Source: Blepharisma japonicum
Lineage: Eukaryota; Ciliophora; Heterotrichea; Heterotrichida; Blepharismidae
NCBI GenBank assembly: GCA_949751835.1
Contig: CATKHK010000076.1
Location: 62,001-126,000 of the forward strand
Length of the DNA: 64,000 bases
Direction: 5' to 3'
The notes under the pieces: model-generated
Database searches by the model: none
Seen by the model: only the letters and a program-made list of their open reading frames with translations
What the model was told of the DNA's origin: nothing
Shown: positions 12,620 to 60,290 of the stretch, one piece after another
Position numbering within the stretch: the first letter of the stretch is position 1
Layout of the letters: each line of letters begins with the position of its first letter
Translations under genes and position numbers: made by a program

Positions 12620-13369
12620 ATGAATATGCTAAAAGTTAGCACTTTTAACATATTCAATACTTTTCTCTCCTATCCAATTCGAAGCCGTCTAATAGCTCAA
12701 GCCTTAGATTCTATGGGCAGCTCTATAGTTGGATTTCAAGAAGTGAATTTCGAAGGAAACCGCGATATTTACACAAGAGCTGGCTTTAATTTTATTTTTT
12801 CTCCTCTTCCAGAGCCAATGTTTTGGAATGATCCAACTTTTCGCATTGATGGGAATGGAATTTTGATTAAATCTGACATAAAGGTTATATCTGAAAGCTA
12901 TTTCACCTATCATTCAAGTATTCGCGTAGCTCAACTTATGAAAATTCGCATAGAAAACAAAGAGATTTATATAGTGAACACTCATTTGGACCATATTTTA
13001 GAGGATACAAGACTTAGCCAAGCCTCTCAGCTATTGGAATGAATTAGAAATTATATGGGATTTCCTATTATTCTCCTGGGGGATTTCAATTGTATTCCTG
13101 ATTCACCAACTTACAATTTATTGGCAAGGCACTTTAGGTCAGCTATGAAAACAGTACATGGAAAAGAACCAGTTGTAACCTGGCCAACAGAGCTTTTGGG
13201 ATCAAAAGAGGTTTGGGGGCAATACGGAGAGGCTGATTGCTATGACTATATTTGGTTTAAGAATATCAATGTAAAATCCGCAAATATAATTACTGATATA
13301 AAAGATGGTAATATTTGTCCTAGTGACCACTATCCATTAGAAGCAGTTTTTGATTTAAATTTTGATTAA
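12620..13369 (+). CDS. EEP-family (endonuclease/exonuclease/phosphatase) hydrolase, copy 1
   Basis: 249 residues from ATG 12620 (ATG 12626 is equally possible, since the neighbouring paralogue begins at the equivalent MLKVS). One TGA Trp near 13040. EEP signatures in order: KVSTFNI at the N-terminus, GFQEVN (metal-binding Glu), NTHLDH, GDFNCIPDS and the C-terminal SDHYPLEA His. All expected catalytic residues are present. The length fits single-domain Mg2+-dependent EEP phosphodiesterases or phosphatases. The substrate (nucleic acid, phosphoinositide or sphingomyelin) cannot be assigned. It lies 104 nt upstream of a close paralogue. Confidence 0.85.
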
Positions 13370-13473: not shown

Positions 13474-14229
13474 ATGCTGAAAGTCAGCACTTTTAATATT
13501 TTGAACTCCTGCTTATATTATGAGCATAGAAGTCCGCTTATTAAGAGAACAATTGATGAAATGGACAGTGACATTGTTGGACTTCAAGAAATTGATTATA
13601 ATGGAAATAAAGATATTTACAATCATCCAGGCTACAAGTTCATTTACTCCCCAGCACCTATACCTTTGATGTGAACCGAACTAGGATCAATAAACTTAAA
13701 AATTGATGGAAATGGCATCCTAATCAAAAATGAAATAAAAATCCTTGCAGAAGGTTACTTGACTTATAAATCAAACACAAGAGTGGCTCAAAGAATGAAA
13801 ATAAGGATTAATGGCAGAGAAATATGGGTAATTAACACACATTTAGACCACATTACAGAAGAAGAAAGACTTGAGCAAGCAATGAAGCTAATCGATTGGC
13901 TGAGACCTATGATGAATTCTGCTATAATTGTCATGGGAGATTTTAATTGTGTTCCTGAATCTGAAACTTATGAGCTTTTCAGTAGACATTTTAAATCTTC
14001 AATGAAAGAATTGCATGGAAAAGAGCCTGATGTAACATGGCCCACAGAGATGCTTGGGAGTAGAGAAAACTGGGAAAGGTTTGGGGAAGTTGGATGCTAT
14101 GATTATATTTGGTTCAAAAACCTCAACGTTGTTGACGGTAGAGTCCTCACACATATAAAAGATGGACAGTTTTACCCAAGCGATCATTATCCAGTTCAAG
14201 CTATATTTGATTTAAGCATTCCTAGTTAA
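13474..14229 (+). CDS. EEP-family hydrolase, copy 2
   Basis: 251 residues, ATG to TAA, with one TGA Trp at 13672. Same architecture as the upstream gene and clearly its tandem duplicate: MLKVSTFNILN, GLQEIDYNGNKDIY, NTHLDHITEE, GDFNCVPES, ATWP-like VTWPTEMLGS, CYDYIWFKN and SDHYPVQA. All catalytic motifs are intact in both copies, so both are probably active. Divergence is moderate across the whole length rather than confined to one region, so the duplication is not recent. Substrate unknown. Confidence 0.85.
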
Positions 14230-37856: not shown

Positions 37857-40800
37857 ATGGGAAGAAAACTTATTCTACTCTTCATGCTTGTCTCTTTAAG
37901 CTTGGGCTTAGGCTCAACAGCTAAGCAAATAACGATGGAATCAACAACTATTGAAGATGAATCTTCTACAATGGGCGCACCTGAAGAAACTGAGCCAGCT
38001 GCAGAAGAGTTAACCATCGAGGAATCAACAACTACAGCTGAACCAGATATGGAACCTGAAACCACTGAAGAATCCAGTGAAGAAACAACTTATGAATATC
38101 CAACATTAGATTATGTGTATGTACCTGAGGAATCAGAAGAGTCTACAGAAGAAAGCACTCTCGAGTTAGACGAAATGACTCTGACTGCTACTGCTCCTGC
38201 TGAAACTACTGAAGAATCAAGTGAAAGCTCAGTAGAAGAAGAAGAAATTTTAATCACTGATTACGTATATGAACCTGAAGCTACTTATACATTGACTGCT
38301 GTTCCTGAAGAAACCACTGAGGAATCAACTGATAGCTCAGTAGAAGAAGAAGATTTAATCACTGATTACGTATATGAGCCAGAAGCTACTTATACATTGA
38401 CTGCTCTTCCTGAAGAAACCACTGAGGAATCCACTGATAGCTCAGTAGAAGAAGAAGAATTAATTACTGATTACGTATATGAGCCAGAAGCTACTTATAC
38501 ATTGACTGCTGCTCCTGAAGAAACCACTGAGGAATCAACTGATAGCTTAGTAGAAGAAGAAGATTTAATCACTGATTACGTATATGAGCCAGAAGCTACT
38601 TATACATTGACTGCTGCTCCTGAAGAAACCACTGAAGAAGAGTCAATCGAAAGCTCAGAAGAATATGTGATTGAAGATTACGTATATGAGCCTGAAGTTA
38701 TGTATACATTAGATGCTGCTCCTGAAGAAACCACTGAGGAAGAGTCAATCGAAAGCTCAGAAGAATATGTGATTGAAGATTACGTATATGAGCCTGAAGT
38801 TATGTATACATTAGATGCTGCTCCTGAAGAAACCACTGAGGAATCCACTGAGGACTCAGAAGAATATTTAATCACTGACTACGTTTATGTGCCTGAAGTT
38901 TCAATAGAAGCTGTTCCTGAAGAAACCTCAGATGATGAAGCAGAAGAAAGCGATATAGTTTACATGGCTGCTCCAGAAGAAATGGAAGTAGAATCTTCAG
39001 AAGAAAGCGATATAGTTTACATGGCTGCTCCAGAAGAAATGGAAGTAGAATCTTCAGAAGAAAGTGAAATTGTTTACATGGCTGCTCCAGAAGAAACCGA
39101 AGTAGAATCTTCAGAAGAAAGTGAAATAGTTTACATGGCTGCTCCAGAAGAAATGGAAGTAGAATCTTCAGAAGAAAGTGAAATTGTTTACATGGCTGCT
39201 CCAGAAGAAACCATGGAAATTGAAGCTACATCTGATCCAGAAGAAATGGATACCACTGAAGAAGAGCCAGAAATAATGTCATTCGGACCTGCTCCAGAAA
39301 CCGAAACTGTAGAACTTGTAGTTACAGTTGATCAAGAAGACGGCACTGTTTGTGTAAGCTGCATTTCAACCGAAGATGCTGAAGCAGTTATATCAGGAGA
39401 AGCTGAGCTTGAAGTTGTTGTAGATGTTGTAGGAGGTGAGGAAGAAGGCCAAACTGAAGAGTCTTCAGAAGAAACTCCTGCAGAAGAAACAACCCCTGCT
39501 GAAGAAACAACTCCTGCTGAAGAAACAACCCCTGCTGAGGAAACAACCCCTGCTGAAGAAACAACCCCTGCTGAAGAAACTACCCCTGTTGAAGAACAAA
39601 TTGCTGAAGAGCAAACTGAAGAAGAGCAACAAATAGCTGAAGAGGCTAGCGAATCAAGCGAAACAACAGAAGAAATTATTGAGGAACAAACTCCTGAAGA
39701 ACAACAACATGCAGAAGAAGTCGAAGAATCTGAAACTTCTGAAGAGCATATTGAAGAAATCGCTGAAGAGCAAACCCCAGAAGAGCAACAAGAAGCTGAA
39801 CAAAACGCTGAAGAAGTTGCTGAGCAAGAAACTGAAGAAGAGGAAATCATTGATACTATCAATGAACAATTAACACCAGAAGAACAAGCTGAAGCAGAAG
39901 CTAACGAAGAAGCTGAAGAAGAAGCAGCAGCAGAAGAGACAGTTGAAGAAGCAACCCCTGCTGAAGAAACCACCCCTGCTGAAGAAACCACCCCTGCTGA
40001 AGAAACAACCCCTGCTGAAGAAGCAACCCCTGCTGAGGAAACAACCCCAGCTGAAGAAACCACCCCTGCTGAGGAAACAACCCCTGCTGAAGAAACAACT
40101 CCTGCTGAAGAAACAACCCCTGCTGAAGAAACAATTCCTGCTGAAGAAACAACCCCTGTTGAAGAAGAGTCCTCTTCTGAACAAATTGCTGAAGAGCAAA
40201 CTGAAGAAGAGCAACAAATAGCTGAAGAGGCTAGCGAATCAAGCGAAACAACAGAAGAAATTATTGAGGAACAAACTCCTGAAGAGCAACAACATGCAGA
40301 AGAAGTCGAAGAATCTGAAACTTCTGAAGAGCATATTGAAGAAATCGCTGAAGAGCAAACCCCAGAAGAACAGCAAGAAGCTGAACAAAACGCTGAAGAA
40401 GTTGCTGAGCAAGAAACTGAAGAAGAGGAAATCATTGATACTATCAATGAACAATTAACACCAGAAGAACAAGCTGAAGCAGAAGCTAACGAAGAAGCTG
40501 AAGAAGAAGCAGCAGCAGAAGAGACAGTTGAAGAAACAATCCCTGCTGAAGAAGCCACCCCTGCTGAAGAAGCCACCCCTGCTGAAGAAACCACCCCTGC
40601 TGAGGAAACAACCCCTGCTGAGGAAACAACCCCAGTTGAAGAAACCACCCCAGCTGAAGAAACCACCCCAGCTGAGGAAACAACCCCTGTTGAAGAAACC
40701 ACTCCTAGTGAAGAACAGCCAGCAGAAGAGACCCCAGCTGAAGAGCAACCAGCAGAAGAGACCCCAGCTGAAGAGACTCCAGTTGAAGAGCAAATTGCTG

Positions 40801-41723
40801 AAGAACAAACTGAAGAAGAGCAGCAAATAGCTGAAGAGGCTAGCGAATCAAGCGAAACAACAGAAGAAATTGTTGAGGAGCAAACTCCTGAAGAACAACA
40901 ACATGCAGAAGAAGTCGAAGAATCTGAAACTTCTGAAGAGCATATTGAAGAAATCGCTGAAGAGCAAACCCCAGAAGAGCAGCAAGAAGCTGAACAAAAC
41001 GCTGAAGAAGTTGCTGAACAAGAAACTGAAGAAGAAGAAATCATTGATACTATCAATGAACAATTAACACCAGAAGAACAAGCTGAAGCAGAAGCTAACG
41101 AAGAAGCTGAAGAAGAAGCAGCAGCAGAAGAGACAGTTGAAGAAACAATCCCTGCTGAAGAAACCACCCCTGCTGAGGAAACAACCCCTGCTGAGGAAAC
41201 AGTTCCTGCTGAAGAAACCACCCCTGCTGAAGAAACAATCCCTGCTGAGGAAACAACCCCTGCTGAGGAAACAACCCCTGCTGAAGAAACAACCCCAGCT
41301 GAAGAAACCACCCCTGCTGAGGAAACAATCCCTGCTGAAGAAACCACCCCTGCTGAAGAAACAACCCCTGTTGAGGAAACCACCCCTGCTGAGGAAACAA
41401 TCCCTGGTGAAGAAACAACCCCTGCAGAAGAAACAACCCCTGGTGAAGAAACAACCCCTGCAGAAGAAACAACCCCTGGTGAAGAAACCAAACCTTGTGA
41501 AGAAGAACAAGGAGGCTCAACTTCAACCGAAGTTAATATTCAAACAGACGGTAGCTACACCATTGTAACATCAGGAGAAGGATCATCTGATTGTGATGGA
41601 TGCGATGTCGATGTTACCATTGAAATCAACGGAGAAGAAGTAGCAACACTTTGCAACGATGCATCATGTGACACAGAAGCTGTTATCATTATCGAATGCG
41701 AATCTGATTGCGACATTCAATAA
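37857..41723 (+). CDS. Secreted, extremely acidic repeat protein (1288 residues)
   Basis: ATG to TAA, one exon, no TGA. A signal peptide (KLILLFMLVSLSLGLGSTA) is followed almost wholly by repeats. Block A (~38253-38930): seven copies of a ~35-residue unit around DYVYEPEATYTLTA and PEETTEEST. Block B (~38940-39220): five copies of a 19-residue unit with IVYMAAPEE and EVESSEES. A short non-repeat segment contains TVCVSCISTEDAEAV. Block C: hexapeptide TPAEET arrays alternating with three near-identical 118-residue Glu-rich units. The C-terminus is a small Cys-rich domain (SSDCDGCDVDV, TLCNDASCDTEA, IIECESDCDIQ). The composition is dominated by Glu and Thr with almost no Lys/Arg. It could be a Ca2+-binding granule matrix, cyst-wall or surface protein; function unknown. 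Confidence 0.88.
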   Translation: MGRKLILLFMLVSLSLGLGSTAKQITMESTTIEDESSTMGAPEETEPAAEELTIEESTTTAEPDMEPETTEESSEETTYEYPTLDYVYVPEESEESTEESTLELDEMTLTATAPAETTEESSESSVEEEEILITDYVYEPEATYTLTAVPEETTEESTDSSVEEEDLITDYVYEPEATYTLTALPEETTEESTDSSVEEEELITDYVYEPEATYTLTAAPEETTEESTDSLVEEEDLITDYVYEPEATYTLTAAPEETTEEESIESSEEYVIEDYVYEPEVMYTLDAAPEETTEEESIESSEEYVIEDYVYEPEVMYTLDAAPEETTEESTEDSEEYLITDYVYVPEVSIEAVPEETSDDEAEESDIVYMAAPEEMEVESSEESDIVYMAAPEEMEVESSEESEIVYMAAPEETEVESSEESEIVYMAAPEEMEVESSEESEIVYMAAPEETMEIEATSDPEEMDTTEEEPEIMSFGPAPETETVELVVTVDQEDGTVCVSCISTEDAEAVISGEAELEVVVDVVGGEEEGQTEESSEETPAEETTPAEETTPAEETTPAEETTPAEETTPAEETTPVEEQIAEEQTEEEQQIAEEASESSETTEEIIEEQTPEEQQHAEEVEESETSEEHIEEIAEEQTPEEQQEAEQNAEEVAEQETEEEEIIDTINEQLTPEEQAEAEANEEAEEEAAAEETVEEATPAEETTPAEETTPAEETTPAEEATPAEETTPAEETTPAEETTPAEETTPAEETTPAEETIPAEETTPVEEESSSEQIAEEQTEEEQQIAEEASESSETTEEIIEEQTPEEQQHAEEVEESETSEEHIEEIAEEQTPEEQQEAEQNAEEVAEQETEEEEIIDTINEQLTPEEQAEAEANEEAEEEAAAEETVEETIPAEEATPAEEATPAEETTPAEETTPAEETTPVEETTPAEETTPAEETTPVEETTPSEEQPAEETPAEEQPAEETPAEETPVEEQIAEEQTEEEQQIAEEASESSETTEEIVEEQTPEEQQHAEEVEESETSEEHIEEIAEEQTPEEQQEAEQNAEEVAEQETEEEEIIDTINEQLTPEEQAEAEANEEAEEEAAAEETVEETIPAEETTPAEETTPAEETVPAEETTPAEETIPAEETTPAEETTPAEETTPAEETTPAEETIPAEETTPAEETTPVEETTPAEETIPGEETTPAEETTPGEETTPAEETTPGEETKPCEEEQGGSTSTEVNIQTDGSYTIVTSGEGSSDCDGCDVDVTIEINGEEVATLCNDASCDTEAVIIIECESDCDIQ
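38253..38930 (+). repeat. Coding tandem repeat, ~105-nt unit, 7 copies
   Basis: Successive copies start near 38253, 38358, 38463 and 38568, each 105 nt apart, then continue with slightly shorter units. Encodes the Tyr-containing acidic unit DYVYEPEATYTLTA. Confidence 0.85.
38940..39220 (+). repeat. Coding tandem repeat, 57-nt unit, 5 copies
   Basis: Encodes IVYMAAPEE plus EVESSEES units of 19 residues. Copies differ at only a few bases (for example Met or Thr in EEMEV/EETEV). Confidence 0.85.
39480..41490 (+). repeat. 18-nt hexapeptide arrays with three 354-nt units
   Basis: Three 354-nt units at 39597-39950, 40182-40535 and 40791-41144 are exactly equal in length and nearly identical in sequence. 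Between and after them are arrays of 18-nt repeats encoding TPAEET with variants IPAEET, TPVEET and TPGEET. The codons alternate (cct/cca, gaa/gag), so these are old enough for synonymous drift, while the long units look homogenised. Confidence 0.9.
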
Positions 41724-51304: not shown

Positions 51305-52051
51305 ATGTCCAACCACTCTTCAGGGTGTTTTACTTCATTTTTCAGGTGCTGCAAATCCAAATCGCATAGAAATGCAATAAGTGCCGATAATCATGCATCT
51401 TTACACAATTCCCAAGAAATAATCAGCCAGAATCCCAGTATTCAAACCACTCACTCTTTGCCTCAGAACTTGCGGGCTTCCACACAAAGTTTAGCAGATC
51501 TCAATAAACCAGCATCACACAAGCCAAGCATTGCTGTTAAGAAAGGCGATGCATTTGAGCCACAAGCTTTAGATCGTAGTGAGATAATTTTGAAAAATAA
51601 CTGAATGAGAACTTTTGATCTCAGATCGTCGGTAAGCTCTTTACCTTCCGATTTCAACGAATCTATACACGAAAGTGCAAATAACACAAATTTATTATCA
51701 ACACAGACGTTTAGGCAGATTTTTAACTCTACTGAAGAAATATCTTGGAGAAAAACTTTTTCAAAAATAAACCCTTTACCCAACCCTTTTGTATTTGATA
51801 CAAAATTGCTGAAGCCAAAATTAGTTCCTATAACTCCAGCACACTTCACAAGAAGAAGAACAGTTGCTGTAAAAGATAAGGCAAAAAACCAAGACAACAG
51901 CACAATACTAAGAAGATCAACGCTTAAGACAACTCAAAGCAAAGATATTCCTAAAATAAATAGACGATATACAGCTATCAGAGAAAATGACGAAAATCTA
52001 TGTGAGAAGTTTGAAAACAGCAACCAAGTAATTGGAAAAATTCAAATATAA
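51305..52051 (+). CDS. Disordered Ser/Asn-rich protein, unknown
   Basis: 248 residues, ATG to TAA, with one TGA Trp at 51602. Ser/Asn/Thr-rich and probably disordered, with scattered basic clusters (HFTRRRTVAVKDKAK; TILRRSTLKT). The N-terminus is Cys/basic-rich (CFTSFFRCCKSKSHR), which could be S-acylated. RRxS/T-like sites suggest phosphorylation. No domain recognised. Confidence 0.6.
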
Positions 52052-52234
52052 CTAAATTTTTGTATAATCACTCTCTTATTTGAGCCTTTTATTTAAGATG
52101 ATAAATAATTTAACAAATTTATTGAAATTAGCCAAATAATTATTAATTTGATATTATAAAAAAGGATAAGGAGTAACAGTTTATTAGATAATTGATGACA
52201 TTTTAATAAAGTTTAAACTTCAACAACTTTTAAT

Positions 52235-53923
52235 ATGGAAATTACAGAACTCCGGCCAAAAAGAAGATCGAAAAAAGTAGGGGTGTCCTTAAATTATGAC
52301 CGAACTCGACGGTCATCAAGCAATCAAGAAACTCTGTTTACCGAGCTTCCATCAATTCCTAATATAATGATCTCTAGACGTAGAGAAACTCCAAATCCTA
52401 CTAAAATTCCAAAATATAAAGAAATCGATCCCAAATCATTTCAAGTCAGCAATATAAACAAGGATCTATTAAATTTGGCCAAAAAAGAACTGAAATTTGA
52501 TGATACGATTCTAGCCCTTATAGCGGTCACGATAATCATGATCTCATATATGGAGAACGAAATTTTTTTTGCAAATGGAAATAAAAGTACCTACCTGTGC
52601 ACGTATTTAAGAGTTATGGAAATGGCCATGGCATTATTCAGCGTTATGTGAATTGTCAGGCGATACTATAACATCTTAACGATAAAGATAGTAAGTTTTG
52701 AAGAATCCATATATACTACACTATCCTCATCATCTCTAGTTAAGCCCATGATAATTGAAATTTTGATCAATATATGATTTTCTCCTCCTGGCTATGATAA
52801 ATTATTTACAGTGTCAATGATGGGTTACGATATGACCTATTCTTGGAACTCTGTTTTCGCCTTCATCATCCTTCTTAGGATGTATCTGTGTATAAGACTT
52901 TTCGGACACTATAGCTTCTACACAAAACCTAAAGCTGAAAGAGTCTGTGAAATGAACGGGGAGAAAGCATCTTCGCTATTTGCATTAAAATGCTTTATGC
53001 AAGATGCCTCTCATTTTGGCATTGCACTTGTATTTATTATTATTTCTCTTTACTGGGCATTATTAATGAGACTAGCCGAAAGAAATAATAGGATTTATTC
53101 CGATAATGTAGACACAGAAAGCCGTCTTGTAACATTAGCTGACAACCTTTGGCTTGTTTTTGTAACTACCACAACAGTTGGTTATGGAGACATTTTCCCC
53201 GTAACTCATCCTGGAAGATGTATCGCAGTCATTGCTTGTATCATTGGAAACGTGTATTTAGGGATGTTAGTTGTAAGCCTAAGGAAAGAACTCGAACACT
53301 CCAAAGAGCAGCATTTAGCATATGCCTGGATAACCAGAAAAGGGATTGCTGAAGACATAAAAAAAGCTGCCGCTGTTGCAATTAGAAAAGCATTTACTTT
53401 ATACATGCTTCATATTAAATGAGGAAGCCATTGCGTGTCCCCAATCAAGCCGAACCCAAGAGTTGTATATAAAGGAAGAGAAGTCCCAAATGACCAAGAA
53501 GCTTTAGGAGATTCCAAATATAATAAAAAATTCAGCCTCTATAAAGAGATGAAAGCAAGTCTGCATCATATGAAAGTCCTGGTGAAAAAATCAAGAGAAG
53601 TCGGTGAGACGGATAATGATATTATTATGAACTTAGCTGATATTGCACTTGTAGATTTATATGATATTGAAGGAAAATTAAAAAGCGTTATAAATGAATC
53701 AAGATTGCTAGAGGCTTCAAGTAGCATTGGGGTCCAGAGACAAATCGAAAATAAAACGGCAGCTATTAGAGATATGTCGAGATTGATAAGGAGAAGACTA
53801 GTTGGAAATAGAAGAGGGACTGTGTCGCCTGATACGTCTCCTAAAAGGATTGTTGATGACTATTTCTCTGTCGCGGCGAACGATTTTAGTATAAAACTTG
53901 AAAAGGAAGAAAATCAAAATTAA
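52235..53923 (+). CDS. SK-type small-conductance Ca2+-activated K+ channel
   Basis: 562 residues, ATG to TAA, with TGA Trp codons near 52649, 52774 and 53420. Six hydrophobic helices (~85-350), no Arg-rich S4, and a pore with filter VTTTTVGYGDIFPVTHPG (~308-325). After S6 comes a stretch close to the SK calmodulin-binding domain (AEDIKKAAAVAIRKAFTLYM, matching the IKxAAxxxLRxxW pattern). The C-terminal ~100 residues are helical and end in a basic stretch (RRRLVGNRRGTVSP). SK channels bind calmodulin constitutively and open on Ca2+. The stop is 7 nt from the stop of the opposite gene. The second K+ channel of the window. Confidence 0.88.
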
Positions 53924-53930
53924 AGTGTAT

Positions 53931-54692
53931 TTAAATAATTCGATTATTTATTTTTACATTAATTTGCCCAAGTGATCATTTAAGCCTATTTCTAACTTGA
54001 AAAGGTAAATCTTTCATATCATTTTCATCTATTTTGTCAGCCACTTTTCTTATTCTTTTACTTATATTCACATTCATCATTACATATCCTCACAAAATTT
54101 TGCTATAATCTTCAAGATTTCATCTATTTTTCATCATCAATTCGTCAGTTAATCTCACAACATGCAAATAAAAATTCTTATTCCCTTCATTCATACTTGC
54201 AAAAGTCTCTATCAAATTTCCAAGCTCTTCTACAGAAATAAACTCATGTTTTTCTGTTTTCTTGAAATATGCGTCAATTCTGTCCACAAACTGGGTTTCT
54301 ATATGCTGAAATACTTCTTGGTGAGAAATTGGCAAACTTTCAGGGACTAAGGCAAAGCCTTGGGAAGTTCTTATTAGCCCTATTGGATTCATTAGTGATG
54401 TGATATCAGTTCTTGCAATCTGCATTTCTAAAACGTATCATAAATCAGCTTCAAAGTATTTTATTAATGCTGAGTAGTATGTTATTGCTGCAAGATGGTT
54501 AGCATCTATTCTTCTAATTGCTGATTTTGTGTAGGAAAAAAGTGATTTAAACCATTCTTCGTCTTTATAGAAAAATGAGTCGCTATCTTTGCACTTTGAT
54601 AGGCTATATAATGTTTCAGCTACCTTTAGCCCAGTTAAATTTGTCCCAGTAAGTTGTTTTCCTATAGAACAAAAACAATTAATTCCTTTCAT
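53931..54692 (-). CDS. Helical protein, unknown
   Basis: 253 residues from ATG 54692 to TAA, with four TGA Trp codons (near 54435, 54117, 54084 and 53988). It is helical with repeated short hydrophobic helices (LKVAETLYSLSKC; DANHLAAITYYSALIKYF; EELGNLIETFASM), reminiscent of alpha-solenoid (FASTK or pentatricopeptide-like) mitochondrial RNA proteins. That is only a resemblance in style; no motif is diagnostic. It may have further 5' coding sequence, since no other start is obvious. Confidence 0.65.
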
Positions 54693-54814
54693 TTGCAACT
54701 TATAATAGGGCTATTATACTCATAAAACTTATAGTCACAGCTTTCTCATAAGATATTTAAGGTTTATTAAATATTTAGCACATTGATACATTAAAGATGT
54801 ATATAAAAATTAAT

Positions 54815-56521
54815 TTAATCTATTAAGACAACCTTCGCATTCCAATTTCCAAAGCTATTTCCTGTATATTCTGTTAATATTCCTTTAAAGTCTGCTACGT
54901 AAACTTTAATTATAACACCAAGTGGCTCTATCCAACTGACTGCATCAGTAAGACAGCCCCTGGCAGTGAAAGTTCCTATAGACCACTTAAATCCGTTCCA
55001 AACATATTCTATAATATTTCCTCTTTCAGATCCTACATAAACTCTTATTCCTCCATCCAAAGAAGTCGCAGAGACTGCGTATCCTTCAGCTGAAAATTCT
55101 CCTATGTACCATTCAGAACCTCCATCTTTACATTTTTCAATGATTTTTCCGTCTATAACTTGATAAAGTCTTACATGTCGTATAAAAGGAGTTGTTCAAG
55201 TGATTGCAGACATAGAAATTTTGGTACACGATGAGGAATTGTCACTTTCAGATTCGTCGATATCACTGCTGGTTGTTTCACTTTCACTTGTGGTGGTTTC
55301 TGTTATTGTGACTTCGCTCTCAGTAGTTGTGGAGTCACTTTCAGAGCTTTCAGAGCTTTCTGAATCTTCAGATTCTTCAGTGGAAGATACAGGGATTACT
55401 TCATCGGACTCTTCAGCAGCACTTTCTGATTCACTAGTGGTTTCTGTTATTGTGACTTCGCTCTCAGTAGTTGTGGAGTCACTTCCAGAGCTTTCATTGC
55501 TTTCTGAATTTTCAGATTCTTCAGTGGAAGATGCAGGGATTACTTCATCGGACTCTTCAGCAGCACTTTCTGATTCACTAGTGGTTTCTGTTATTGTGAC
55601 TTCGCTCTCAGTAGTTGTGGAGTCACTTTCAGAGCTTTCATTGCTTTCTAAATCTTCAGATTCTTCAGTGGAAGATGCAGGGATTACTTCATCGGACTCT
55701 TCAGCAGCACTTTCTGATTCACTAGTGGTTTCTGTTATTGTGACTTCGCTCTCAGTAGTTGTGGATTTACTTCCAGAGCTTTCTGAATCTTCAGATTCTT
55801 CAGTGGAAGATACAGGGATTACTTCATCGAATTCTTCAGCAGCACTTTCTGATTCACTAGTGGTTTCTGTTATTGTGACTTCGCTCTCAGTAGTTGTGGA
55901 GTCACTTCCAGAGCTTTCTGAATCTTCAGATTCTTCAGTGGAAGATACAGGGATTACTTCATCGAATTCTTCAGCAGCACTTTCTGATTCACTAGTGGTT
56001 TCTGTTATTGTGACTTCGCTCTCAGTAGTTGTGGAGTCACTTCCAGAGCTTTCTGAATCTTCAGATTCTTCAGTGGAAGATGCAGGGATTACTTCATCGG
56101 ATTCTTCAACAGCACTTTCTGATTCACTAGTGGTTTCTGATGTTTGGAGTTCCTCTGGAGCGCCTTCAACGGTTACATCACGTGTTTCACTTGATTCATT
56201 AGTATCAACTTCTACAGTGACAGTAGGAGATTCGTTACGATCTTTTTCACTTTCCGTGCCTCCCCTTTTTACCTCAATTTCTACTTCTACTTGAGCATCT
56301 GGCTTATTACTATGAGTATTAGTAGTTGAAGTGCTTGTGCTTTCAATTTCTTTCGAAGCATTGCTATTAGATGATCCCCCTTTGTTTGTTGAGATTTGCT
56401 CGATTTGAGTAAATGCTGTATTTTGAGCTATATCAATTGTGTTAATTATTGATTGGTCATTTCTGGCTCTGAGAGAGATTAATGATGTTAACATCAACAA
56501 TAGAAGTCATATCTTTTGCAT
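54815..56521 (-). CDS. Secreted stalk protein with fucose-lectin-like C-terminal domain
   Basis: 568 residues, ATG 56521 to TAA, with TGA Trp at ~56507 (inside the signal peptide MQKIWLLLLMLTSLISLRA) and ~55194. Residues ~125-420 are six tandem Ser/Thr/Glu-rich units of 45-48 residues (TTSESESAAEESDEVIP; SSTEESEDSESS), a mucin-like acidic stalk. Residues ~435-568 are three repeats of the AAL/RSL fucose-specific lectin type: HVRLYQVIDGKIIEKC..., IRVYVGSERGNIIEYVWNG, IIKVYVADFKGILTEY. Each blade follows the pattern (I/V)(R/K)(V/L)Y, G-I-x-E, W-x-x-G-x-F. The family binds fucose at interfaces between blades. An extracellular glycan-binding or adhesin role is inferred. Confidence 0.85.
55270..56140 (-). 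repeat. Coding tandem repeat, 135-144-nt unit, 6 copies
   Basis: Six near-identical units encode the acidic Ser/Thr stalk (TTSESESAAEE... then TTTESEVTITE). Units differ mainly by short indels of three codons. Confidence 0.85.
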
Positions 56522-56600
56522 TTTTATTTTATAAAATTTTCTAAATATGGCTTAAATCTATCCGTTTTCGAAGAATTAAGCGATTAGAATAAACTGATGG

Positions 56601-56622
56601 AACGCTTTATGAATTAAGCGTT
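56601..56622. other. Short inverted repeat upstream of the stalk-lectin gene
   Basis: AACGCTT (56601-56607) and AAGCGTT (56616-56622) form a 7-bp stem with an 8-nt loop; the AAGCG word recurs at 56578 and 56649. Could be a chance palindrome or a regulatory site about 80 nt upstream of the start codon. Confidence 0.25.
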
Positions 56623-57021
56623 TTGTGGTAATTATGAAAAAATATAAAGCGTTTAGTGATTTTTAATGATTGTCCTAAATTGTATTTGCTACTTAAAAGA
56701 AAATTAGTCTTTTTTCTTTATAGAAAAGTCCCTCATACAAAAGACTATTAGATAGCTTAGCTGCTATATATACTGCAAGTAAAATGAAAAGTTGGTAGAT
56801 GAAGTTTTACTTGAAGAAGAGCAAAGAGCTTATAAAGTCATAAGAGCGTTAGCTTACTAATACTTAAAGAACACCGCAGATCTTTAAGCGAGGGCGCCAA
56901 GTCTCTAAGGTAAAACAGTATATATCAAATCTTTAAGTAGTTTCGTTATATTTTATATTGATCTCAAGCTCGTTAGACTTTAACATCTGCCTTAAGCTAG
57001 AAAAATGTTAAATAAGTAATA

Positions 57022-57438
57022 ATGTGCAAACCAAAAATCAACGAGTGAGATTACAATTATTGGCGAACTCAAATACATTATGAGCTAGCTACGAAAATTA
57101 TACTGAAAATAATCGCAGTTAAAAATATCCAATTAGTAGATGAAGAACTGCGCCTAATAGGTAGCCATTACCCCTACATTGGTCAAATATGGTTTACGGC
57201 GCGGTACCGTATAGAACTCATAGCTCGTAGAGTATCATTGCAGATCAACCCAAATGAAACAACGCATTCAACATTTTACAATAGTTTTAAACAGAAAATT
57301 GATGAATGTCTAACCTTACCATATCTATTTAGCAGTAAACATAGCAGAGAAGAAGTGCATGCTAATAGAAATGATATATGTGAAGTTGCAGAGCTTGTTG
57401 AACTTATTGATACTCACCTATCAGACATTCTGTCTTAA
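57022..57438 (+). CDS. Unknown 138-residue protein between the lectin genes
   Basis: ATG to TAA, one TGA read as Trp near the start (INEWDYNYWRTQ). The product is mixed alpha-helical with aromatic residues (QLVDEELRLIGSHYPYIGQI; WFTARYRIELIARRVSL) and an acidic C-terminus (DICEVAELVELIDTHLSDIL). No signal peptide. It uses codons rare elsewhere in the window (GCG, CGG, CGC, ACG clustered at 57194-57210). Not recognised. It lies on the opposite strand to both flanking lectin genes. Confidence 0.6.
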
Positions 57439-57525
57439 TCGTGGCAAAGCAATAACATATTGAATTTCTTCTATTAAATTTCTTTTTAAATAAAACTTGT
57501 TTACAATAAATAAGGAAATTCATTA

Positions 57526-57939
57526 TTAAATCCCTAAATCATTACTTAGTTCCCATTCATTTCCATTTTGATAAGAATACTCTGATATTGATCTGTCTTC
57601 ATCACTCACATAAACTTTAATTTTTGGGATTCCATCATCCAGCCAGCTTACAGCTGTTGATGAAATCCCTTCTGCTGTAAAGGATCCTTGATACCATTCT
57701 TCTCCATCCCAGCAATATTCATTAATAAACGAGCCGATTCCTACATAAACTCTAATGCAAACTCTATCTCCCATAGTTCATGAGGTAGCTGATACAGTCT
57801 CTCCTGGAAATGAAAATGCTCCTGGATACCAGTAACCATCTCAGCATTTTTCTTCAATGTTTCCATTTCTAGAGTAATAAACTCTGATATGATTTTCATT
57901 TGCGCTATCTCTCCAAGAAATAGCTGAGGTAGAAGCCAT
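57526..57939 (-). CDS. RSL/AAL-like fucose-specific lectin
   Basis: 137 residues, ATG 57939 to TAA, with TGA Trp at two sites (EKCWDGYWYPGAF and SATSWTMGD). No signal peptide. The sequence follows the bacterial Ralstonia lectin RSL closely: HIRVYYSRNGNIEEKCWDG, WYPGAFSFPGETVSATSW, CIRVYVGIGSFINEYCWDG, EEWYQGSFTAEG, then a third, shorter blade IKVYVSDEDRSISEY. RSL-type blades bind L-fucose through Arg, Glu and Trp, and those residues (R in IRVY, E in IEE/INE, W in CWDG) are kept in blades 1 and 2. Six-bladed propellers form by oligomerisation (RSL: two blades x three chains), so three blades may dimerise. The binding itself is inferred. Confidence 0.9.
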
Positions 57940-58138
57940 TATGGATTCTTTATATATCAGCTTTCTTAAAAATATTTACTATATTTTTATATTTTCAGAT
58001 CTTTTGCATGCAGATCAATGTGATTAAATATGCTTTTAAAACAAAATTCCGCTTTTCCAGATTACAGTGAATTTATTCTGATTATCTTTATCAATTTAAT
58101 TAAATGAGAAACAAGTTTTTTATGCTTTATAATAAAAT

Positions 58139-59227
58139 TTAAGTCAAAAGTAATCTAATCACTATGAACTGCATATAAAATGCCACAAAATTCTTAGTTC
58201 CTATATCACTGCTATTAAAAGAACCTGACGGTCCTGAAAATGACATGCATAGAGTAGCAACATATGCTAACATAAGCACAAATCCTTCAGTTAATAGCCA
58301 AGGAGAAGCTAAAAGATAATCTAAAATAACGTAAGTTCAATATAAAAAAACAGTCAAGATTAATAGTCCAAAAAATCCAAGTAATTCAGATAGTGCAAAA
58401 TTCTCAATTTGTTGAAGATTTTTGCCTTTGGGTCTGCGAGCATATGAATTTCCATGGATATAATCTGCAAAAAGACTGAATAGTAGAGCATAAATCATAA
58501 CTATTATATAGAGTATAATATATTCAGTAAATATCCCAAATAACCACTTCATGATTTCAAGTATTCCAGTTGATAGGCTTCCATAGTATATCTTGGAAAA
58601 TAAGATAACTCAAAAAGTAAATAATAAAAAATGATTCATGCCTAGTGCAGTATTTAGAGATGACTTACTTGATGAGTTAATTAAAGGGCTTCTTTTTCAG
58701 TATATCAAATAAGATGCTATTACATGTAAAACTGGGTATACAGAAGGAAATATTTTGCCATATTGAGAATTTTCATCAAGAGTAGCAGAGTAAATATACA
58801 AAATATTCCAATTTAACAGGAAGAGGACAGTAGATACTTTTTTATCTATGCTTTGCAGTGGATTGATTCAGAGTAAAATTGGGACTAGTAAGCTTAAATT
58901 ATAAGTTGATCTGCTATACCCTATATAAGCAAATATATCATATATTTTAGTAATATACCTTATGATAAAAAAATTTGAAAGTGAGTCTTCAAGTTTTAAT
59001 ACCTCATCTGAGATTCCAGCAATTTCTAAAATATTAAATATATATTCATTTCAGCCAAAAAACCTAAAAATATAGTAGTTTATAATAAGTCATAGAAGTA
59101 ATCTAAGCAATGACTTTAGACAATTTCTGTTATTTTGTAGTCAAGATAATAAAATGCATGCATCACAACAAAATAGGCACCCATAAAAGCATCCATAAAA
59201 GCATATTGCACCTGCGATACTTGACAT
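58139..59227 (-). CDS. Multipass membrane protein, unknown
   Basis: 362 residues, ATG 59227 to TAA 58141-58139, with seven TGA read as Trp; without that reading it would be broken into fragments. About eight to nine hydrophobic helices. The N-terminus is Cys/Phe-rich (MSSIAGAICFYGCFYGCLFC); a polar loop (NSYARRPKGKNLQQIENFA) sits between helices near the C-terminal third; the last helix is VAFYMQFIVIRLLL. No family recognised. It may be a transporter, scramblase or sensor, but I assign no function. Confidence 0.75.
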
Positions 59228-59686
59228 TTTAATAATCACCTTTAAATCAATTTGAACCTATTAGAATATTCAGCACAAAAAGAGAATAAAGGAGCCATTA
59301 GCAGCATGATGAATGATTATATAACTTATAATTATAAAATACAAAAACTATTATCTTGCTAACCTTAATCAATTTAAATTAAGGCTACACTAGTTTTATA
59401 TGATTTTATACATTTTTAAACACTTTTAGTTCTGAATTTTGCTTGGAAATCTAAATTGATAAAGAAATTCATACGTTCTCAAGCAATAGATTTGCCATTT
59501 ATTTATGAACCTCCTAAAAAATCATCTATCTATTAGAGGCCGCTTATTTTAATACTTACTTTATACTTATCATCACCAATCATTGCAGGCTCCATCATTC
59601 TCCTTACTTATCTTTATTATTTACTCTTCAATTTTTTGTTTTTTGTTCGGCATCCCAACATCTGTGTGTATCACCCTTCATAATTC
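59228..59686. other. Intergenic
   Basis: Nothing convincing in ~460 nt. One short frame near 59583-59768 (plus strand) is a shadow partly overlapping the 3' end of the bromodomain gene. Confidence 0.5.
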
Positions 59687-60290
59687 TTACTCTTTCAATT
59701 TATCGAACGTAGCTTTATTAATCATGTCAAGAGAAATCATGACCCTTTCTTTATCTAACTGTGTATAAGCTTGAGGACATTCATTTTCCACAATGGTCAC
59801 GATATGCGCCAATGCATCATGGCTTACTTTTTTAACCAGCTCAGAAAGCTCTGTTTTTTCTTCGACAGGAATCACTGGCTCTCTTGGTCTTCTTATAGGT
59901 GAAGGCTGAGGGATATTGTGTTCTGTGCAATAGTCGTGCATGAACTGCTCGCATTTTGATGCTTCTTCAGCAACAACCTAGTTTAAAAAATACTGATCCA
60001 GCAGGGTTATAAGTTTTACAGTTGTCCCAGATTAATTGGACGTCAAAAATGAACTCATCTAAATTTTGGTATTCGTTATTCACAAGACGTTTTCTGACTG
60101 TTGATAAGTCCATAGGCTCCTTGATAATTTCTGGATAATCTGTGAGACCTAACCCTACATAGTCGACAGGTAAGCGAAACCAATGAGCTCCTGGCTGTCT
60201 GCTGAGTGCTTTCAGGAGACCTTGAGCTCGAATGCACTCGTCTCTTGTAAGAAGCAATTTTGGTGGCCCTTGCTTTGATGTGGAACTCAT
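59687..60290 (-). CDS. Minimal BET protein: one bromodomain plus NET domain
   Basis: 195 residues in two exons (60290-59994 and 59977-59687), ATG to TAA. Residues ~10-115 form a bromodomain: LLKALSRQPGAHWFRLPVDY, DYPEIIKEPMDLSTVRKRL, DVQLIWDNCKTYNPAGSVVA, with the acetyl-lysine-binding Asn of NCKTYN. Residues ~140-195 match the NET (extra-terminal) domain of BET proteins (LSELVKKVSHDALAHIVTIV; VMISLDMINKATFDKL). BET proteins read acetylated histones and recruit transcription factors via NET. One bromodomain plus NET is the plant GTE layout, and much smaller than animal BET proteins. Confidence 0.9.
59978..59993 (-). other. 16-nt intron
   Basis: GTATTTTTTAAACTAG on the minus strand, phase 0. 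Retained, it shifts the frame so that the bromodomain gene ends prematurely; removed, it restores the end of the bromodomain (GSVVAEEASKCEQF) and the NET domain. Confidence 0.92.

Follow-up and report, generated by a model that had tools for sequence, protein, structure and literature searches.

The bacterial lectins RSL (Ralstonia) and BambL (Burkholderia), covered by the NCBIfam family NF052355, are small: 12 bacterial relatives have 87-92 residues and two blades, and RSL and BambL are described as trimerising. The fucose lectin of Kordia zhangzhouensis dimerises. AAL (Aleuria) and FleA (Aspergillus) have the same blade type and the same Pfam domain, PF07938, with six blades per chain according to the title of entry 1ofz and, for FleA, as described in PMC9764287. 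On the ciliate side, the granule cargo proteins of Tetrahymena and Paramecium (Grl, Grt/Igr) are described as acidic and calcium-binding (PMC4978903; PMC9159632), the former paper adding that they aggregate and that their calcium affinity is low. Here we describe P0001, a gene of the heterotrich Blepharisma japonicum whose product runs from a signal-like start through a long acidic stalk to a three-blade lectin head. It lies in a window of 64,000 nucleotides (C76:62001-126000; mean GC 34%), taken from the 45.2-Mb, 224-contig genome that was searched. The stalked lectin is real and beyond chance; its head is of a known type and its layout is a new variation. As to its function, we favour, with a probability of about 0.4, a secreted soluble polyanion ending in a glycan-binding head, packed in granules and acting as a dimeric cross-linker.

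Read under genetic code 4 (TGA = Trp), P0001 is a single continuous frame across stalk and head (Table 1), and the coordinates and strand given by the first-pass annotation, 54815-56521 (-), are correct. Two TGA codons fall within the frame (W5 and W442). Because codon 442 sits on a column of the head alignment that holds Trp in five of the six other heads (and Tyr in the one from contig C34), TGA reads Trp here; the same assignment has been reported for Blepharisma stoltei, whose genome is given as 41 Mbp and 66% AT (PMC9942806).

Table 1. Positions of P0001, its parts and other features in the window.
Feature	Position	Strand	Evidence
Stalked lectin gene P0001, 568 aa	54815..56521	-	TGA=Trp frame, family match
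Signal-peptide-like N terminus, about residues 1-19	56465..56521	-	Sequence and hydropathy; cleavage site inferred
Ser/Thr/Asn/Glu-containing non-repeat linker, residues 20-130, without Cys or CxxC module	56132..56464	-	
Six tandem 45-48-aa acidic Ser/Thr/Glu repeats, residues 131-409	55295..56131	-	DNA repeats, unit comparison
Three-blade lectin head, residues 435-568	54818..55219	-	PF07938, RSL structure match, AlphaFold
Free three-blade lectin P0002, 137 aa, no signal peptide found	57526..57939	-	PF07938, structure model
138-aa open reading frame between P0001 and P0002	57022-57438	opposite strand	
1288-aa secreted-type protein, acidic repeats and Cys-containing tail	37857..41723	+	Open reading frame, hydropathy, module search
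CxxC module, about [IV]D[EQ]ExGTVCxxCI	39294..39419	+	Genome search, E=2.0e-6

The stalk and the head might nonetheless lie on separate transcripts, or the repeat-bearing open reading frame (ORF) might be a compositional artefact. Two observations would suit such an explanation: a plus-strand ORF of 364 aa runs opposite the gene (55200-56294), and the pairs that include the P0001 head give weak evidence of purifying selection. It is barely credible, given the unbroken frame from stalk to head, three further genes of the same layout, 9-nt length differences between repeat units that preserve the frame, and two pairs of paralogous heads under purifying selection (ratio of nonsynonymous to synonymous substitution rates, dN/dS, about 0.16 for the pair on contig C33 and about 0.20 for that on contig C111). 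In the other 13 of the 15 head pairs, dS is 0.72 to 1.57.

The head matches PF07938 with 25.7 bits (cut-off 25.3) and the RSL structure 4csd with E=2.8e-23 (phmmer), and it scores 65.8 bits against NF052355, under the cut-off of 100. The AlphaFold model of this region is confident and contains 12 strands, forming three four-stranded blades, in agreement with the three-blade lectin that had been predicted at first; with Pfam at E up to 1, P0001 yields the lectin only. By its sequence, the head groups with the bacterial RSL/BambL-type lectins. AAL and FleA, with six blades per chain versus three here, are matched more weakly by the ciliate heads than RSL is. The Kordia lectin (PDB entry 6htn), a free bacterial lectin without an acidic stalk, has a 143-residue chain and matches the ciliate three-blade model from end to end. 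A plasmid search returned one record, from Burkholderia arboris, whose lectin then located 12 bacterial loci. Phage records and PHROGs gave no match, viral contigs yielded no relatives of P0002, and searches with the alignment A4 against bacterial/archaeal genomes and viral contigs gave 197 and 129 pattern matches, none of which was confirmed.

The fucose site of RSL is described as Arg17, Glu28, Trp76 and Trp81, with Ala40 (PMC3466270), and we mapped these residues onto the ciliate heads by alignment. Site 1, made of the Arg and Glu of blade 1 and both Trp of blade 2, is complete in four of the seven heads (P0001, P0002 and both from C33). In the two C111 heads, the stacking residue is Tyr instead of Trp, and the blade-1 Gly has become Thr or Ala; in the C34 head, His replaces Arg and Tyr replaces Trp. 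According to the title of entry 6t99, an RSL carrying Tyr in the two stacking positions has been crystallised with methylfucoside. Relative to RSL and BambL, the ciliate heads have three blades and Lys for Arg in blade 3 (six of the seven heads, P0001 included), and four of the genes add a signal and a stalk. In P0001 only site 1 appears complete, because the stacking position is taken by Lys in blade 1 and by Gly in blade 3. The seven heads share 16 invariant columns, 6 of which fall within the 12 site columns (hypergeometric P=0.0006); when C34 is left out, 9 of the 12 site columns are among 32 invariant ones (P=0.0001). Since some of the Trp may be structural, this enrichment is suggestive only.

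P0001 begins MQKIWLLLLMLTSLISLRAR, with a hydrophobic core whose mean Kyte-Doolittle hydropathy is 2.45 over 11 residues. The signal-like start was called from hydropathy and sequence, and it bears out the earlier description of a secreted-type protein. Neither a C-terminal nor an internal membrane segment was found (the highest later 19-residue mean hydropathy is 1.29), and a C-terminal hydrophobic or glycosylphosphatidylinositol (GPI)-type anchor is absent, the lectin occupying the C terminus. For this reason, we do not favour the adhesin or receptor suggested by the first-pass annotation. In place of an anchored adhesin, the data are better matched by a soluble polyanion whose head binds glycans and is probably dimeric, a glue-like cross-linker of granules or matrix. 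Yeast flocculins and mucin-like adhesins consist of an N-terminal lectin, a long Ser/Thr-rich stalk and a C-terminal GPI signal. P0001 is like them in having a lectin and a long stalk, but its lectin is C-terminal and it carries no GPI-type signal.

If the N-terminal segment stayed uncleaved, P0001 could be a type II membrane lectin whose stalk presents the C-terminal head, as an adhesin or a food/mating-glycan receptor. Type II membrane lectins have this domain order, and in P0001 an N-terminal hydrophobic segment is indeed present and the head follows a long stalk modelled with low confidence. However, the hydrophobic core measures only about 14 residues, and a free lectin on C33 has the same kind of start without a stalk, as would be expected of a cleaved signal; we consider a type II protein unlikely.

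The AlphaFold model of the stalk is mostly below 50 in the predicted local distance difference test (pLDDT), and the acidic stalk is predicted to be without stable structure. Six Ser/Thr/Glu repeats joined in one protein to a fucose-lectin-like head had been noted in the first reading, and this is what we find: the units are 45, 45, 45, 48, 48 and 48 aa long, and each begins TSESES. Pooled over 15 unit pairs, the ratio of nonsynonymous to synonymous differences per site (pN/pS) is 1.14, with pS 0.032. As judged from these differences, the array is young and gives no sign of constraint between units; six is therefore the present count and not a conserved number.

Mucins are defined by O-glycosylated repeats rich in Pro, Thr and Ser and conserved as such. 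The stalk had been called mucin-like, a reading that its composition does not support, as Pro makes up 2.2% in P0001 (18% in the C33 stalk) and Ser 25% versus 1.1% in C33. Across the three loci the stalk sequences are unlike one another; what all of them share is a strong negative charge (net -111 over 412, -133 over 365, -42 over 132 and -66 over 185 residues in the four lectin stalks). Because charge and not Ser/Thr content is common to the stalks, the term should be dropped.

An acidic protein of this kind could also be a constitutively secreted constituent of a matrix, cyst wall or oral mucus, with the head binding a wall glycan and the polyanion holding water and Ca2+. The signal-like start, the acidic stalk and the lectin head are all in keeping with such a role, as are the PTVEE repeats of the C33 paralogue, which resemble extensin (Extensin_1 at 85.6 bits, under its cut-off of 105); the Extensin match, however, is probably compositional, and we find this alternative doubtful. 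Between the extrusome and cyst-wall components proposed earlier, the extrusome form is favoured.

Genome searches were made with PF07938, P0001, P0002 and NF052355 in six frames, introns being disregarded, so that gene counts are lower bounds. At least seven lectin genes with intact frames turned up, spread over four contigs, and two decayed copies lie on C33. The stalked layout (signal, acidic stalk, C-terminal head) occurs in four genes: P0001, one on C33 (520 aa) and two on C111 (285 and 340 aa). The first-pass annotation knew of no described protein with this layout. That holds for the literature as far as titles and the beginnings of abstracts go, in that no ciliate protein of this kind was named among the matches listed; within this genome the layout is not unique, since four of the seven intact lectin genes have it, and it thus defines a family.

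The free lectin on C33 (173 aa) has a signal and no stalk. Its head and that of the stalked C33 gene are close duplicates (dN 0.068, dS 0.435), so the stalk was gained or lost within a fairly recent duplication. Downstream of this pair lie the two decayed copies (L025:5875-7279), forming a tandem array with pseudogenes. The C34 gene (L027:2419-3198; 259 aa) encodes a signal-like start, an N-terminal domain of about 100 residues without Pfam match, and three divergent blades (PF07938 23.2 bits, under the cut-off) that keep Arg in blade 3 and not in blades 1 or 2. A chagasin-like reading of the N-terminal part, prompted by what we took to be a resemblance in its NGYAW motif, was rejected, as Pfam at E up to 1 yields the lectin only.

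A free lectin of the same family had been placed beside P0001, and P0002 does lie on the same strand about 1 kb away. It matches PF07938 with 60.5 bits (E=2.3e-16) and NF052355 (Ralst_lectin) with 134.9 bits (cut-off 100), and its model has three blades (pLDDT 92.3; predicted template modelling score, pTM, 0.88); in several searches the sequence used had one extra residue ahead of its Met. No signal peptide could be joined to P0002 from the 350 bases upstream with zero to two GT-AG introns of 14-17 nt. A hidden signal exon was rejected: when the ATGs of this upstream stretch were combined with zero to two introns out of 7 candidates, nothing but the plain start survived. P0002 thus appears leaderless, and for this reason is not an obvious partner for P0001 outside the cell. 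Of the 15 bases at the start of P0001 (ATGCAAAAGAT.TGA), fourteen are found again upstream of P0002 (window 57995-58009, minus strand), in a frame that, by eye, hits a stop after 19 codons; this recurrence is either coincidental or what remains of a signal peptide since lost.

The bacterial affinity of these lectins might suggest a role in defence, with heads that serve to agglutinate bacteria or to bind algal/fungal glycans and with P0002, which appears leaderless, acting in the cytosol or food vacuole. The closest relatives found are bacterial lectins, as the Ralst_lectin score of P0002 attests; P0002 lacks a detectable signal, and the family is small and varied, with decayed copies. Such a role leaves the acidic stalk unexplained, and we regard it as quite improbable.

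The 1288-aa protein encoded elsewhere in the window has a signal-like start, a net charge of -448 over 1195 residues and many PAEETT repeats of 18-nt units. An N-terminal CxxC module is common to this protein, the C33 stalked lectin and both C111 genes; with E allowed up to 1, a genome search with the module found these four places only, of which the weakest has E=2.0e-6. Under the same E limit, the genome holds no second match to the Cys-containing tail. Among 53 non-nested ORFs of at least 130 aa from the window and three fetched loci (picked for their lectins, not a random sample), a hydrophobic N terminus is present in 13, a count that takes in membrane proteins, and an acidic stretch in 7. 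Five ORFs combine the two features: the 1288-aa protein and the four lectins with stalks.

For P0001 as a granule-packed cross-linker, we envisage the following sequence of events. The signal peptide would route the protein into the secretory pathway, where the disordered acidic stalk, by analogy with known cargo, would bind Ca2+ weakly and aid packing into dense regulated granules (cortical extrusomes). Two three-blade heads would pair into a six-blade propeller, as the fold and the solved lectin of the same size suggest, giving a dimer with two tails; the alignment shows one fucose-type site kept, from blades 1 and 2. After release, the stalk might swell in water and the dimer would cross-link or coat glycans that are fucose-like or related to these; the mucus of the cell itself, bacteria or prey could carry them. 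Stalk length and sequence would change quickly, with charge and head being kept. The likeness to Grl and Grt/Igr is one of description, both being secreted and acidic; a lectin head is not mentioned for them in the portions of those papers that we draw on.

Several observations weigh against this proposal. Constraint on the P0001 head is not well shown, because the five pairs that include it have dN/dS of about 0.37-0.58 at high dS (1.08-1.55). In the C111 pair, constraint extends to the part preceding the head (pN 0.124, pS 0.488, 149 codons), and therefore not every stalk drifts freely. P0001 is without the CxxC module, the genome search giving no match in it, and with its second and third sites damaged, to judge by their residues, it may bind with low avidity. 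Acidic Ser/Glu repeats are also found in surface and wall proteins. By the same analogy with acidic cargo, a fit with granules would hold for many extracellular polyanions too.

As for the remainder of the window, two adjacent and similar plus-strand ORFs of 249 and 251 aa (12620-13369 and 13474-14229) form a local duplication and look, by eye, like enzymes of the endonuclease/exonuclease/phosphatase type. Rfam at gathering scores gave no match in window positions 52000-60000, and no CCCTAACA runs were seen by eye in the outermost 70 bases of eight contig ends.

Tentatively, these genes may belong to a modular secretory family, a possibility that we regard with considerable doubt. Its members would combine an N-terminal unit (a signal, with CxxC in four genes), a polyanionic stalk that changes quickly and, at the C terminus, one of two interchangeable heads: the three-blade RSL-type lectin, perhaps of bacterial origin, or the Cys-containing tail. 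They would form a heterotrich glycan-linking kit for granules or matrix, with charge and head preserved by selection more than the sequence of the stalk. The stalked lectins place a bacterial-type lectin behind a polyelectrolyte tail, and the head and sugar site of this small family, together with its shared N-terminal module, would offer direct probes of the material that heterotrich cells discharge or use as a coat.
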